Part shown: piece after piece, positions 17,721-55,242 of the stretch
Layout: every line of letters begins with the position of its first letter
Position numbering within the stretch: the stretch's first letter is position 1
Assembly (NCBI RefSeq): GCF_023205095.1
Contig: NZ_CP046242.1
Span: 274,501-338,500 of the forward strand
DNA length: 64,000 nucleotides
Direction of reading: 5' to 3'
Origin: Bizionia sp. M204
GTDB lineage: Bacteria > Bacteroidota > Bacteroidia > Flavobacteriales > Flavobacteriaceae
The notes under the pieces: model-generated
What the model saw: only the letters and a program-made list of their open reading frames with translations
Databases searched by the model: none
What the model was told of the DNA's origin: nothing
Position numbers and translations under genes: made by a program

Positions 17721-18770
17721 TTACAGTCCACCACCACGTCTTCCGCCAGAACTTCGTACTCCACCACCTGAACTACTGCGACTTCCGCCAGTGCTCATTG
17801 TAGGCGATGAAGATCTTCTAGGCGTACTAAAGGAATTATTGGTTCTTGGTTGGGTTGTTGTATTTGTTCTTACACGAGGTGTGTTATTTGTATTGGTACG
17901 AACACGAGGTGTGTTATTCGTATTGGTACGAACACGCGGTGTGTTGTTAGTATTTGTTCTTACACGTGGTGTGTTGGCGTCCACTCGAGGTGTACGAGTG
18001 CGAACCTCATTATTGGAGCGCGTACTTCTAGGTGTTGAATATGTAGATTGCGTTCTGCTTCGTCTAGTAACGTCACCATTAGTGGTGCTTCTTCTGGCTT
18101 GCGCGTTATAAATACGATCAGAATCATAGTATCTAGAACTTGCATAACGTCTTGAATTGTTCGCATACACTGAACCTCTTCTTCCATTTACATAGGCTAC
18201 ATTATTTCTGTAGTAATAACCACCTCCGTAATAAGGCGGATAGTAACCACCGTAATAAGGGGGGTAATATCCACCATAATAAGGTGGGTAATAACCATAG
18301 CCACCGCCGTACCAAGGACTGTAATATCCGCCATAGCCCCAGCTACCATAACCATAACCATAACCAAAACCAAAACCAAAAGGAGAATAGTATGGACTGT
18401 AAAAACCACCGCTATTATAAATATTAACGGAAACACTAGAGGACTCTTGACCCCAACCAGCGTATGATTCTCGTTCAACTTCTAATGAATCATTTTCTAC
18501 ATATTCGCCTTCATAATCATCTACATCTGTAAAAACTTCATTTTCAGAATATAATTCTAATTCAGAAGATTTTTCTTTAAAATAATTTTCATAATACGTA
18601 CTGCTAGCATTATTAGCTTCTACGTAAGTTTCTGGTTCAACGGAACTGGAACTGTAAATTCCATCACTATCGTCCACTTGTTGGTAGGTACCACAAGCCG
18701 TCACTAAAAGCAAGCTGCTTAAAATAGCTATTGTGGGTATTTTTTCTGTAAAGTAGTTTTTAAAGGACAT
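17721..18770 (-). CDS. Repeat-rich lipoprotein with Gly/Tyr/Pro and Arg-rich segments
   Basis: A predicted 349-residue lipoprotein; the signal ends SLLLVTAC with the lipidated Cys. I prefer the ATG giving MSFKNYFTEK over one ten codons upstream because the signal is then of normal length. The middle is almost pure Gly/Tyr/Pro, with PPYYGGYY in three tandem copies. The C-terminal third is Arg/Ser/Thr-rich and basic, with an 11-residue unit of the NTPRVRTNTN kind in four copies, and a Gly/Ser tail. No enzymatic domain is visible. Low complexity of this type suggests an extended surface or periplasmic adhesive or structural role, but that is inference. It lies upstream of the FadL-like gene on the same strand. 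Confidence 0.8.
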   Translation of the reverse strand: MSFKNYFTEKIPTIAILSSLLLVTACGTYQQVDDSDGIYSSSSVEPETYVEANNASSTYYENYFKEKSSELELYSENEVFTDVDDYEGEYVENDSLEVERESYAGWGQESSSVSVNIYNSGGFYSPYYSPFGFGFGYGYGYGSWGYGGYYSPWYGGGYGYYPPYYGGYYPPYYGGYYPPYYGGGYYYRNNVAYVNGRRGSVYANNSRRYASSRYYDSDRIYNAQARRSTTNGDVTRRSRTQSTYSTPRSTRSNNEVRTRTPRVDANTPRVRTNTNNTPRVRTNTNNTPRVRTNTNNTPRVRTNTTTQPRTNNSFSTPRRSSSPTMSTGGSRSSSGGGVRSSGGRRGGGL

Positions 18771-18869
18771 ATCTCTTAATTTTATTGTTGAACATAACAA
18801 AAATAGTTAGTTTTGCGAAACTATTCTTATATTTAACATAGTCGCAATATTTGTGCCAAAATCCTGTAT

Positions 18870-49850: not shown

Positions 49851-51815
49851 ATGAGATATAATTTACTTTTTGTTTTATTCATTTTTATTGGACTCCAATC
49901 CTTTGGTCAAATTGTTATTAATGAACTGGATTGTGATACGCCAGGTATTGATGATCAAGAGTTTTTAGAACTTAAATCGGATACGCCAAATTTTGATCTA
50001 GATGGTTATGTAGTTGTTTTTTTTAACGGTTCTAGTTCCGGAAACAACTCGAGTTATTTTACAGTCGATTTAGATGGTTATTCAACAGATGAAAATGGCT
50101 TGTTACTTATAGGTAGTGATACTGTAACACCTTTTCCGCAACTTTTAATTGCGGCAAATACCATTCAAAATGGGCCAGATGCCGTTGCCATTTATCTAGG
50201 AAGTGATTTTGATTTTCCCGAAGAAACGGTAGCAACTATTGATAATCTAATTGATGTGCTAATTTATGATACATCAGATGCAGATGATGTGGATATGATT
50301 GCCATCTTTAGTGCCCACCCAAATTTTTCAGATATTCAACAAATTAATGAAGGTCCTGGAAATAATACCAATTCCATTCAGCGAAATAATGATGGAACCT
50401 ACACATCAACAACACCTACACCTCGTGCTTTAAATGATGGTAGTGGAATAATTTTTAATAGTATTGCCATTTCAACTGATGCAGAACAGTATCAGGAAAC
50501 CGATGCTATAACAATCACGTTTACAGCTCAAACCAATGTAACAGCAGATGCAACCTTTTCTTTTTCTATGGATAATGGCGGGTTTAATGCGGCAGATTTT
50601 ACAGGAAACACTACCGTAACCATTCCTAACGGACAAAATACGGTTTCAACAATTATAACATTAATTGATGATGCTGTGGACGAAGGTGATGAAGAGCCTA
50701 TTATTAAATTTGTAAACTTACCGTCACCTTATATTCCATTTAATAATTTTATAAAATTGCGGGTTGTGGATAACGACTTCACCCAAGCTAATTTTGGAAC
50801 ACCCTTAAATTCTACTTATGGAAACGTTACAAGTACACAACCTAGCGGTTATTATGATAGTTTGGATAATTTATCTGATGTTAATTTAAAACAAGCCTTA
50901 CAAGACATTATTGCAGATCCTTCTGTCGTACGTGCTCAAACATATACAGATGTTATTGATATTTTAAAAGAAGCCGATCAGAATCCTGAAAATAGTAATG
51001 AAGTGTGGTTGGTATATTTAGAACAAGGACGTGCTAAATTGGATTATCAATTAAATTCAGTTAGTACGGGTAAATGGAATCGTGAGCACACATTTCCAAG
51101 ATCTAGAGCTGGTTATTACAGTATTGAAGAAGACGAAATAGCAGACGGAAAGGACATTTTTTGGACCACTGAAGCCGATTCATTACGTCATGGAAATTCT
51201 GATGCACATGCATTACGTGCGGCAGATGGACCTGAAAATAGCTCAAGAGGTAATCAGTTTTATGGCCAATATACTGGACCTACAGGAACATTAGGAGGTT
51301 TTAAAGGTGATGTAGCGCGTGGCGTATTTTATTTAGCCATACGTTATAACGGATTGGATATTGTAAATGGTTACCCGGATGGAAACGTGGGACAATTTGG
51401 CGATTTACAAACCCTTTTAGAGTGGCATAGAAATGATCCGCCTGACGATTTTGAAATGAATAGAAATAATATAATTTATACCTGGCAATATAACAGAAAT
51501 CCGTTTATAGATCAGCCAGATTTAGTAGAGTATCTTTGGGGAGATAATGTAGGTGAAGCATGGGTTCAACCTTTGAGTATTGATGAAAAAACCCTGGATT
51601 CCATTGTGATTTATCCAAATCCAACGTCTGGACGTGTATATGTAAAAGGACTGAATAATCGTGCTAATGCAACCGTTTATTCTATAGAAGGGAGAGCGTT
51701 ATTCACCAAAGAAATTACTAATTCGTATATAGATTTAAACTTGTCAAGTGGTATGTATCTATTACAAATTACTTCTGATAATAAAACAACCACCAAAAAA
51801 ATTATGGTGAATTAA
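49851..51815 (+). CDS. Secreted endonuclease I family protein with T9SS type A sorting domain
   Basis: A 654-residue exported protein, taking the ATG at 49851. The signal peptide (MRYNLLFVLFIFIGLQSFGQ) is followed by a lamin-tail-like domain (IVINELDCDTPGIDDQEFLELKS) and a Calx-beta-like region (residues about 205-310). The nuclease domain follows with WNREHTFPRSRAGYY (catalytic His region of EndA/NucM) and HGNSDAHALRAADGPENSSRGNQ, GDVARGVFYLAIRY, and LLEWHRNDPPDDFEMNRNN. The C-terminus (IYPNPTSGRVYVKGL...GMYLLQITSDNKTTTKKIMVN) is a T9SS type A sorting domain. It probably degrades extracellular DNA for nutrients or biofilm control. Confidence 0.93.
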   Translation: MRYNLLFVLFIFIGLQSFGQIVINELDCDTPGIDDQEFLELKSDTPNFDLDGYVVVFFNGSSSGNNSSYFTVDLDGYSTDENGLLLIGSDTVTPFPQLLIAANTIQNGPDAVAIYLGSDFDFPEETVATIDNLIDVLIYDTSDADDVDMIAIFSAHPNFSDIQQINEGPGNNTNSIQRNNDGTYTSTTPTPRALNDGSGIIFNSIAISTDAEQYQETDAITITFTAQTNVTADATFSFSMDNGGFNAADFTGNTTVTIPNGQNTVSTIITLIDDAVDEGDEEPIIKFVNLPSPYIPFNNFIKLRVVDNDFTQANFGTPLNSTYGNVTSTQPSGYYDSLDNLSDVNLKQALQDIIADPSVVRAQTYTDVIDILKEADQNPENSNEVWLVYLEQGRAKLDYQLNSVSTGKWNREHTFPRSRAGYYSIEEDEIADGKDIFWTTEADSLRHGNSDAHALRAADGPENSSRGNQFYGQYTGPTGTLGGFKGDVARGVFYLAIRYNGLDIVNGYPDGNVGQFGDLQTLLEWHRNDPPDDFEMNRNNIIYTWQYNRNPFIDQPDLVEYLWGDNVGEAWVQPLSIDEKTLDSIVIYPNPTSGRVYVKGLNNRANATVYSIEGRALFTKEITNSYIDLNLSSGMYLLQITSDNKTTTKKIMVN

Positions 51816-51837
51816 TTATAAAATCAAGCAAAAACAC

Positions 51838-51869
51838 AAAGCCCAAACAGTACATGTTTGGGCTTTTTT
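51838..51869 (+). terminator. Terminator after the endonuclease gene
   Basis: Arms AAAGCCCAAACA and TGTTTGGGCTTT around loop GTACA, followed by T residues. Confidence 0.9.
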
Positions 51870-51887
51870 ATGCTTGTATAAAACTGG

Positions 51888-53726
51888 TTATTTCTGATTT
51901 TTGGTCGTAACAATTATAGCGCCATGCTTGCCTTTTTCGCCATATTTGGCCTTTGCCATGTCTGGTTTTAAAACATTTACGTTTTTAATATTATCGGGTT
52001 TAATAGCTTGCATGTCATTCCTAGTAGATAATTTTCCGTTAATAAGTATTAATACCGTTTCGGGAATCTCCATAAGTTTCGTGTCTGTTTCTCCTGTCGA
52101 AATAACAATAACACCATCCTTACCTTTATCACCATATTTTTTCAGTTGATCCTTATTTGTAATAACATTGGTTTTAATAATAGTATTTGGATCAATTTGC
52201 TCCATTTCTTCGGGGGTTATTTCCTTGTTATTTAAGAGAATGAGAGGTTTCGTTTCAGTCGTAAAGGGATTGTTTTTATGGGGATTGGAATCCTTGATTT
52301 CAAAGGTGGTTTTCCTTCAAAAATAATAACCCCGTCTTTTCCTGCTTCACCATAGCGTTTTAAACCTTCGGTTTTGTTTATGGCTGTTATACGTTCAGAA
52401 ATAGTATAATTTTCATGTTTTAGGTCTTCTTTTTTATATGGTTTCCCATTTATAATATAAAGTGGATTTTCACCTAACCCTTGGTCTTCTTGAATAACTT
52501 TTTCTGTTCCTAATTGGGTGGTAGCGGTTTTTCCAAAGGTAATCCGGTCTTTACTCACTCGCGTTATTTCATCATCAGAAAATTGAAACAAAATATCTTG
52601 TTTGTTTTCGGTTAGCCTTAAGGAAAATGGCTTAATGGTTTCTTGTTTATCATTTTTAACCGTTACCCGTTTGGCATATTTGGTTCCTGCTTCATGTTTT
52701 TTTTTTAATGGTGATTTCCCGAATGGTGTTATCCGCATTTCTGGAAACATTACTAAACTTTAATCTTACGTTTTTATTAGAAAAATGGGATTCAATTTTA
52801 GCGAGCTCCACGGTGGTAGACTTTTCGGTAACCCTAAATACTTGGGATGAGTTTTGAGTTTCAATGGAAGCTTTAGAAATATAAACCTCTTTCGTGTTGA
52901 AACTCATAAAAAATAAGGCCAAAGCAGGAATTACTAAAGCGTATTTCCATGCGTTTACAGTGTTCGATTTTGATGTGTGTAACATAACGATTCGTTTTTT
53001 GATTAATGAATTATAAAAATTATTCGCCATCACCAATTGATGAGTTGGTATGCTTGCCTTTAATAAAAGACGCTGATAGCTTTGTTTGCAATCGGTTTCC
53101 GACTGTATATGTTTGTCTGCAATAAATTCTAAATTTTGCTGAAGTGCTTTTTTGTAAAACCAAACGAGCGGATTAAACCAAAATGCAATACACGTAAGCT
53201 GGGAAATAATTACATCTATAGAATGCCATTGCTTAACATGAATGCGTTCATGATTTAAAATGAGTTGTAGTTCGTCATTATTAAATGACTTGGAATTAAA
53301 GACAATTCTATTAAAAAATGAAAATGGGGCAATTGTATCTTCTGTTTCTATATAATGAATACCTGCTATTTGTTTCGAAGACTTATTCCGTATTAATTTG
53401 AAAAGTGATAGGAGATTCAAGATGAATTTTCCGAAGAAAAACAAAACACCTATACTATAAGCCCAGAAAAATATGCTTTTTATACTAAAGTTTTCAGGTA
53501 CAATTTGTTCCGTAATAGGCATGTTTGGAACTAATATGGAATTGAAATTTTGTGGAGCAACCTCTACATAAATGGGAATTACCAATAAAGGAAATAATAT
53601 AGCTATAATTTGACCGCTTAATAGAAACCAGCGGTTAGAATTAAAGAAGGTTTCCCGTTGTAAAAACAAAGTGTAACCAAAGTAGAATAGTGCTAATACA
53701 GCGGATACTTTTAATAGGTATTCCAT
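51888..53726 (-). pseudogene. M56-family (BlaR1/MecR1-like) peptidase-sensor gene broken by two frameshifts
   Basis: The first frame (52692-53726) encodes membrane helices and an M56 metallopeptidase domain with the zinc motif HERIH at residues 159-163. It stops right after a run of ten A. Continuing in the next frame gives a segment (52232-52690) with the plug-like block LKRYGEAGKDGVIIFEG. A second shift near 52307-52318 returns to the original frame, which ends (51888-52230) with two more such blocks (KKYGDKGKDGVIVIST, AKYGEKGKHGAIIVTT). One extra A at the homopolymer and one missing base later would give one continuous gene of about 612 codons. It is thus a pseudogene, a sequencing error or a case of slippage. 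It begins 2 bases after the BlaI-type repressor gene. Confidence 0.85.
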
Positions 53727-53728
53727 GA

Positions 53729-54088
53729 TTATTTGTTTTTCTCAATTAACGCAATTATTTCTTTCAGCTCATCCACGCTTATTTTTTCCTCTTGGGCAAA
53801 AAATGAAACCACGTTTTTATAAGAGCTATTAAAATAGTTGTCAATAGCTGTATTCATGAATTTCTTTTTGTACTGCTCTTTGGTTACAATAGGGAAGTAC
53901 TCGTGCGTTTTTCCATACGCTTTGTAGCTAACATATCCTTTGTCTTCCAAATTTCTAATAATAGTAGAAAGGGTGTTATAATGTGGTTTTTCTGTTTCTA
54001 TCGCGGCTAACACGTCTTTTACAAAGGCTTTTTTAAGCGTCCATAAAATGTGCATAATCTCTTCTTCCTTATTTGTTAATTTTTGCAT
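53729..54088 (-). CDS. BlaI/MecI-family transcriptional repressor
   Basis: A 119-residue winged-helix repressor of the BlaI/MecI/CopY family. It starts MQKLTNKEEEIMHILWTLKKAFVKDV, followed by the recognition-helix region HYNTLSTIIRNLEDKGYVSYKAYGKTHEYFPIVTK, and ends with a dimerisation helix (EEKISVDELKEIIALIEKNK). It precedes the M56 gene by 2 bases; such pairs are sensor-repressor units in which the peptidase cleaves the repressor. The target genes are not known. Confidence 0.93.
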   Translation of the reverse strand: MQKLTNKEEEIMHILWTLKKAFVKDVLAAIETEKPHYNTLSTIIRNLEDKGYVSYKAYGKTHEYFPIVTKEQYKKKFMNTAIDNYFNSSYKNVVSFFAQEEKISVDELKEIIALIEKNK

Positions 54089-54282
54089 TGACAGTTATTT
54101 AAGTTTACGCAGTAATGGAAATGTATTATTGATGCATTCAAATGTATAACTATTTTTGTAGTTATACAACTATAAATATAGTTATTTAACGAATTTTTTA
54201 GTTTTGATTATAAAATCATAGGAAATAGTATCTTCGCACCTCAATATATCAGAAATAAAAAGCTGTTTAAATTAAAGTAAGA

Positions 54283-55242
54283 ATGAGTATAGTTTGGATG
54301 CTATTAGGTTTAGTGTTATTAGTAGTTGGTGGTGAGTTTTTAGTTAGATCTTCGGTGGCACTTTCCTTTAAATTTAATATTTCAAAATTAGTAATAGGTA
54401 TGACGGTTGTGTCTTTTGCAACTTCAGCTCCTGAATTATTAGTTAGTTTACAAGCTGCTTTAGATGGCTCACCTGATATTGCACTCGGAAATGTTATTGG
54501 TTCCAACATAGCAAATATTGGCCTTGTATTAGGTATTACTGCCTTTATTTCACCTTTAACTATAGATAAGGATTTCTATAAATTAAATTGGCCTATGATG
54601 ATGCTCCTTTCCATAGCATTATATTTTATGTTAAGGAGTGGGTTAATCTTAGACTTTAAAGAAGGTTTAGCTTTAATGGTTTCGCTTATCCTATTTTTAT
54701 TTGTTTTAATACGTCGCTCTAGAAAGTCATCGGATATTGCGGCAGAAACAGATGAAGTGGACGAAACCTTGCAAACCACCTCCAATTTTAAGGTAATTGT
54801 ATGGTTGCTTATTGGAGGTGTAGCTTTATACTTTGGTAGTGAATGGTTAGTAGCTGGCGCTAAAGATATGGCATTCAGTTTGGGTGTTAGTGAACGCGTT
54901 ATTTCTGTAACCATGGTAGCTATTGGTACCAGTGTGCCAGAATTAGCAGCATCTGTTATAGCAGCTATGAAAAAGGAAAAAGCTATTTCTTTAGGGAATT
55001 TAATTGGGTCTAATATATTTAATATTGCTTCTGTTTTAGGATTAACAGCTATGATCCATCCAATACCTGTTAATAATCCTAATATATTAAGTCAAGATAT
55101 CTTTTGGATGTTAGGATTTGCTGCTATACTTATACCGTTAGCATTTCTTCCAAAACGACTATCATTAGGTCGCTATAAAGGCGCCTTGCTTTTAGGGTCA
55201 TATATACTTTTTGTGTATTTAGCGTTTATGGGAGGTAACTAG
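54283..55242 (+). CDS. Calcium/sodium antiporter (CaCA family, YrbG-like)
   Basis: A 319-residue membrane protein with about ten helices and the two inverted alpha-repeats of the cation/Ca exchanger superfamily. Repeat 1 is SAPELLVSLQAALDGSPDIA followed by LGNVIGSNIANIGLVLG. Repeat 2 is SVPELAASVIAAMKKEKAIS followed by LGNLIGSNIFNIASVLG. The central acidic loop (ETDEVDETLQ) separates them. It exchanges ions across the inner membrane; Ca2+/Na+ is the usual activity. Confidence 0.93.
   Translation: MSIVWMLLGLVLLVVGGEFLVRSSVALSFKFNISKLVIGMTVVSFATSAPELLVSLQAALDGSPDIALGNVIGSNIANIGLVLGITAFISPLTIDKDFYKLNWPMMMLLSIALYFMLRSGLILDFKEGLALMVSLILFLFVLIRRSRKSSDIAAETDEVDETLQTTSNFKVIVWLLIGGVALYFGSEWLVAGAKDMAFSLGVSERVISVTMVAIGTSVPELAASVIAAMKKEKAISLGNLIGSNIFNIASVLGLTAMIHPIPVNNPNILSQDIFWMLGFAAILIPLAFLPKRLSLGRYKGALLLGSYILFVYLAFMGGN

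Follow-up and report, generated by a model that had tools for sequence, protein, structure and literature searches.

A BlaR1-like M56 gene in three pieces in Bizionia sp. M204, probably a recent loss-of-function allele

Gene layout and the two frame breaks

The stretch of 64,000 nucleotides analysed here (the window), from the Bizionia sp. M204 genome, which is assembled as one contig of 3,362,199 bases, carries on its minus strand, from 53726 to 51888, a gene of the M56 (BlaR1-like) membrane protease family that is distributed over three pieces in two reading frames. The gene adjoins that of an intact BlaI/MecI-type repressor. The features of this pair, placed where necessary by comparison with five relatives of the genus (G001 to G005, the last being scaffold UBA5079), are listed below (aa, amino acids; ORF, open reading frame; A10, a run of ten A).

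53729..54088, minus strand: BlaI/MecI-type repressor gene, intact, 119 aa, directly upstream of the M56 gene (Pfam Penicillinase_R PF03965, E 1.4e-31)
52692..53726, minus strand: piece 1, 344 aa, M56 peptidase with its membrane helices, followed by the beginning of the periplasmic domain
53238..53252, minus strand: HExxH zinc motif (HERIH), read from the sequence; H159, E160 and H163 invariant in 31 aligned relatives
52697..52706, minus strand: A10 run, first frame break
52232..52750, minus strand: piece 2, ORF in the other frame, homologous over 52292-52708, with the central part of the periplasmic domain and the first of the plug-like repeats
52310..52314, minus strand: second frame break, of opposite sign, from the alignment with G001, G002, G003 and UBA5079
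51888..52322, minus strand: piece 3, first frame again (first ATG 52205; homologous part 51894-52322), two further plug-like repeats

Family membership, as proposed in an earlier sequence-only reading of this DNA, was confirmed by the Pfam match of piece 1 to Peptidase_M56 (PF05569; E 1.1e-17, residues 140-249), which scores 64.6 bits against a cut-off of 31, and the adjoining Penicillinase_R-type repressor makes the two genes a BlaI/M56 pair. Piece 1 ends at a TGA immediately behind the A10 run. Piece 3, whose ORF counted from the first ATG spans 51888-52205 (minus strand), resembles Pfam Plug (E 8.7e-5, slightly below the family cut-off) and a SusC/RagA signature (E 2.9e-9, also below its cut-off).

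One intact G003 protein (615 aa between stops) matches three successive window stretches on the same strand, in frames -3, -1 and -3 (53741-52704, 82% identity; 52708-52292, 66%; 52322-51894, 87%), and the G001 protein gives the same three-stretch picture (68, 70 and 69% identity). A three-way split of one protein at such identities is no chance effect, and both the opposite frameshifts and the well-preserved pieces (66-87% identity to G003) described in the sequence-only reading are thus upheld. At the second break, placed by the DNA alignment about 390 bases farther downstream, a short A run is one base shorter, and the frame of piece 1 is regained.

The M56 gene stands alone in this respect within the window: 61 G003 ORFs of at least 80 aa, from the 100 kilobases (kb) around the syntenic place, match the window and only this one is frame-split, as is 1 of 58 ORFs in the same comparison with G001. 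The sequence A10 is seen once in the window, against an average of 7.7 (standard deviation 4.3) in dinucleotide shuffles, so long A runs are avoided there. Tandem repeats, as a possible cause of the breaks, were searched for at 51500-54500 and none was found. Two more M56 genes of the same genome are both open (725 and 486 aa).

Predicted architecture of the intact protein

The structure of the intact G003 protein (L034) was modelled from 31 sequences (mean predicted local distance difference test, pLDDT, 75.0; predicted template modelling score, pTM, 0.43, at which the relative placing of domains is unreliable). In the model, membrane and protease helices extend to residue 276 and are followed by a beta-rich domain to about residue 404 and by three predicted strand-helix repeats (about 422-469, 494-543 and 558-607); the linker at 475-490 is poorly predicted. 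Long helices flank the HExxH motif, which would lie between putative membrane helices as judged from the model. Going by the translated match, the first break interrupts the beta-rich domain near residue 341, and the second is where the first repeat ends, between about 468 and 477.

The only Foldseek matches of this model in the PDB at E <= 0.001 were five Staphylococcus aureus BlaR1 structures, and the family profile (582 positions) hits SusC and RagA chains through its positions 464-537 (best five, E 1.3e-4 to 5.4e-4). The protein does not qualify as a BlaR1 beta-lactam sensor by NCBIfam blaR1_generic (25.5 bits for piece 1 and 27 bits for L034, against a cut-off of 400), the similarity being confined to the protease side, and no penicillin-binding sensor domain was seen among Pfam matches at E <= 0.01.

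The locus in relatives and the question of slippage

The sequence-only reading had looked to relatives for an intact gene, and this is what they carry. The gene is one open frame in four of the five genus relatives (G001, G002, G003 and G004, with 624, 698, 615 and 562 aa between stops, respectively); in G005 a run of N lies inside the gene, upstream of both break sites, and an open frame of 475 aa follows it. An M56 match was found in 26 of 40 genomes, and among the best 80 of 135 wider loci the M56 frame is open in 79 (526-721 aa), the remaining one being UBA5079. For L038, whose longest ORF (745 aa) differs from its M56 frame (583 aa), the latter was used. These intact counts leave out a match close to a contig end in G015, which covers query residues 95-302 at 42% identity and holds one TGA, and partial second matches with stops that adjoin the main gene in G019 and G004.

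At the place of the A10 run the genus relatives read AAAACAAAAC, AAAACCAAAC, AAAACGAAGC, CGAACGAATC and CGAACCCATC, which code for Ile-Lys/Arg-Thr-x-His, and the A stretch is interrupted in all five. No A run longer than 8 was found near the first-break column (from 24 bases before to 45 after it) in 80 aligned intact sequences (the 79 open wider loci and G001), the longest being 8 in one locus and at most 7 in the other 79. At the second site the frame is kept in G001, G002, G003 and UBA5079; in G004 part of the region is missing.

These alignments bear on the proposal, put forward in the sequence-only reading, that transcriptional slippage at A10 regulates the C-terminal repeats. Programmed or phase-variable slippage, in transcription or replication, would determine how much of the protein carries its C-terminal part. 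One study treats runs of nine A or T as slippage sites (PMC1088944), another reports mixed mRNAs for some Blochmannia genes frameshifted in A runs (PMC3017870), and A runs of 9-11 bases do occur in 3 of the 79 open relative frames, at other places and with the frames unbroken (L076, L078 and L095). Nevertheless, programmed slippage fails the comparative test, since neither the genus relatives nor the 80 aligned sequences have a long A run at that place and the examined relatives do not have a split gene, 79 of the 80 wider loci being one open frame. Furthermore, a product of slippage at A10 alone would still meet the second break: the join of pieces 1 and 2 would stop at 52232, after about 497 aa, short of the last two plug-like repeats. 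Blochmannia genes are described whose A run carries one indel that slippage possibly corrects (PMC3017870); in the window gene the second break is not in a long run, so that full rescue is not to be expected. We consider programmed use of the run very improbable. The same low standing is given to A10 as a slippage or contingency switch producing mainly the 344-aa sensor-less protease and, as a minor product, a protein of about 497 aa with one of the three plug-like repeats, the second break serving to trim the sensor.

Ordinary, unselected polymerase slippage at A10 might still generate a minor protein of about 497 aa with one plug-like repeat, a hypothetical half-sensor that may or may not fold and work. 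The run is longer than the nine-A/T runs studied as slippage-prone in PMC1088944. Such adventitious rescue, which we regard as unlikely, is compatible with a loss-of-function allele, the 344-aa product still being dominant. Translation restart at the ATGA behind the A run was considered as well and rejected: by eye, the ATG is in the third frame and meets a stop after ten codons, and piece 2 would not be produced.

Assembly quality

The sequence-only reading had also named a sequencing artefact in homopolymers, in which case miscalled bases in A runs would account for one or both breaks and the living strain would have a whole gene. Several observations fit this: the first break is at the window's sole A10, the second at a short A run, the relatives are whole and a purifying pattern extends across all pieces. 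The control region was 244 kb of the strain's own genome (G000), compared with the syntenic contig of G003, with 164 non-overlapping conserved ORFs of at least 100 aa. A single match covers at least 80% of 155 of them; of the remaining nine, five have no frame change among the matches kept and four are frame-split, namely the M56 gene, a 351-aa methyltransferase-like gene, a 170-aa ORF and a 103-aa ORF. The 170-aa ORF has an in-frame stop upstream both in G003 and in the strain's own genome, and in the 103-aa ORF the split falls ahead of the likely start codon. In a looser scan of all overlapping ORFs of at least 80 aa, 9 of 267 matched G003 ORFs are frame-split in the strain's genome: the M56 gene, the three ORFs just named and five short ORFs that overlap or overrun another ORF or belong to paralogous neighbours. 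The reverse scan also gave 9 of 267, counted as a group only.

A/T runs gave a similar picture. Inside conserved matches there are 87 runs of 7 bases, 17 of 8 and 1 of 9 (105 in total), and 85, 16 and 1 of these, respectively (102 of 105), sit in ORFs of which a single match covers at least 80%; three remain, all in low-coverage ORFs, two of which have no frame change. Ten-base A/T runs number two in the 244 kb of G000 and none in 306 kb of G003. The assembly is thus good in these surroundings, since control ORFs and A/T runs are nearly all clean, and an artefact, while possible, is made less likely by this. Also against it, the other three frame-split ORFs among the 164 are explained otherwise, and, by simple arithmetic, two random errors in about 185 kb of coding sequence would both fall in one 1.8-kb gene about 1 time in 100. 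Altogether, we judge an artefact unlikely.

Two loci from this control may be described in their own right. The methyltransferase-like gene (G000:C1:378149-378730, L132/L133; so named by eye, without a family search) has 351 aa between stops in G003 and is here split and partly lost. The small gene at about G000:C1 266262-267046 (L130) has an in-frame stop in both the strain's own genome and G003, with the strain's own A5 run one base shorter.

Age of the damage

The open stretches of pieces 2 and 3 measure 127 and 139 codons, and the pieces contain no additional stops or indels. In the rate comparison with G003, pieces 1, 2 and 3 show amino-acid identities of 82, 70 and 88% and ratios of non-synonymous to synonymous differences (pN/pS) of 0.35, 0.30 and 0.17, respectively. 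The low identity of piece 2 is at least partly due to G003, because the window's piece 2 is nearer to G001 (76%) than that of G003 is (66%). Relative to G001, pN is not higher in the window for any piece (0.159, 0.139 and 0.178, against 0.178, 0.186 and 0.180 in the intact G003). With lesions that are missing from close relatives and little further decay, the gene resembles a recent pseudogene, and the recent damage suggested by the sequence-only reading finds support here, with one rate comparison, that with G002, being mixed.

Mosaic periplasmic domain

The periplasmic part of the gene seems to have a history of its own. At 52893-52344 the window is nearer to UBA5079 than to G003 (37 of 144 informative sites are G003-like inside, against 272 of 337 outside), with a like result for G001 (53 of 148 against 386 of 456), and at 52889-52589 G003 is G002-like (23 of 106 sites window-like inside, against 459 of 579 outside); the statistic was reached in 0 of 200 shuffles for the UBA5079 and the G002 comparisons, although these shuffles disregard rate differences along the gene. 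The mosaic begins where the last predicted helix in the membrane part ends, and the pattern involves, besides window 52893-52344, the loci L034, L035, L041 and L006. This strongly suggests, short of proof, that the periplasmic (sensor) domain was exchanged between Bizionia lineages, most simply into G003 or G002. Recombination was also considered as the cause of the breaks; the odd partner in the mosaic is most simply G003, and the breaks are thus not tied to it. This putative sensor-domain exchange may tell more about the role of the sensor than the break does.

Near M56 genes of other loci we observed five stand-alone ORFs (L012:3191-4012, L099:2635-3576, L107:2655-3572, L096:5555-6253 and L080:3356-3592, the last a 79-aa remnant) that have no HExxH and are matched by a profile covering the last helix plus the first periplasmic domain. 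Those of L012 and L099 end in a SusC/RagA plug-like repeat, below the cut-off, and five more (L109, L086, L103, L106 and L013:3051-3890) match the profile in part only. Such ORFs are possible sensor-only paralogues, judging from their profile matches. Elsewhere in the window, 17721-18800 (minus strand) encodes a repeat-rich protein, with GGYYPPYY and NTPRVRTN-type repeats, whose copy number differs from that of the G003 copy.

A probable recent loss of function

We propose that, in one lineage of the Bizionia group, this BlaI/M56 signalling pair is probably present as a pseudogene allele that has recently lost its function. A point change would have removed an interruption, giving a long, hypermutable A run, whose length would then have been altered by replication slippage, ending the frame; another one-base indel would have arisen about 390 bases farther along, before or after the first. 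The outcome would be a 344-aa membrane protease that keeps its zinc motif but is cut short within the first periplasmic domain, so that the remainder of the sensor, all three plug-like repeats included, is missing. In BlaR1/BlaI systems the protease half acts on the repressor once the periplasmic half senses something. With most of its periplasmic half missing, the product, paired with an intact BlaI-like repressor, would thus no longer respond normally; by analogy, the 344-aa stub may be either inert or unregulated.

Several points weigh against this proposal. The evidence comes from a single assembly of one strain, and the A-run shortening at the second M56 site recurs in the 170-aa ORF of the control, which a systematic base-calling habit would also fit. 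Two indels in one gene without other decay are a little unusual for a fresh pseudogene. Moreover, pN relative to G002 is higher in the window (0.203, 0.222 and 0.239) than in G003 (0.152, 0.182 and 0.225), with the excess greatest in piece 1, upstream of the break; G003 is itself partly G002-like by apparent exchange, which bears on this comparison. The sequences give no sign of decay limited to the pieces behind the break, but the rate argument is weakened by this comparison and does not point one way only.

As a probable loss of function, the locus is a clean illustration of a signalling pair, whole in relatives, in which a gene has been broken apparently not long ago, and also a caution that a long A run beside a frame break should not be taken as regulation without comparing relatives.

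Comparison with known systems

The window gene resembles BlaR1/MecR1 with BlaI/MecI in its adjacent BlaI-like repressor, its membrane helices and its HExxH protease part, and differs from them in its periplasmic end, a beta-rich domain with SusC/RagA plug-like repeats, and in being broken. It also resembles flavobacterial M56 proteins with plug-like C-terminal repeats, Peptidase_M56 being found in 31 of 31 aligned intact relatives and Plug in 16 of 31 (E <= 0.01), although theirs is one open frame. With the frameshifted poly(A) genes of Blochmannia and Buchnera, as described in PMC3017870, it shares a one-base change in an A run and an otherwise kept protein sequence; those genes have one indel, in the run, and some are conserved between species, whereas in the window gene there are two breaks, the second of them not in a long run, and such conservation is absent.
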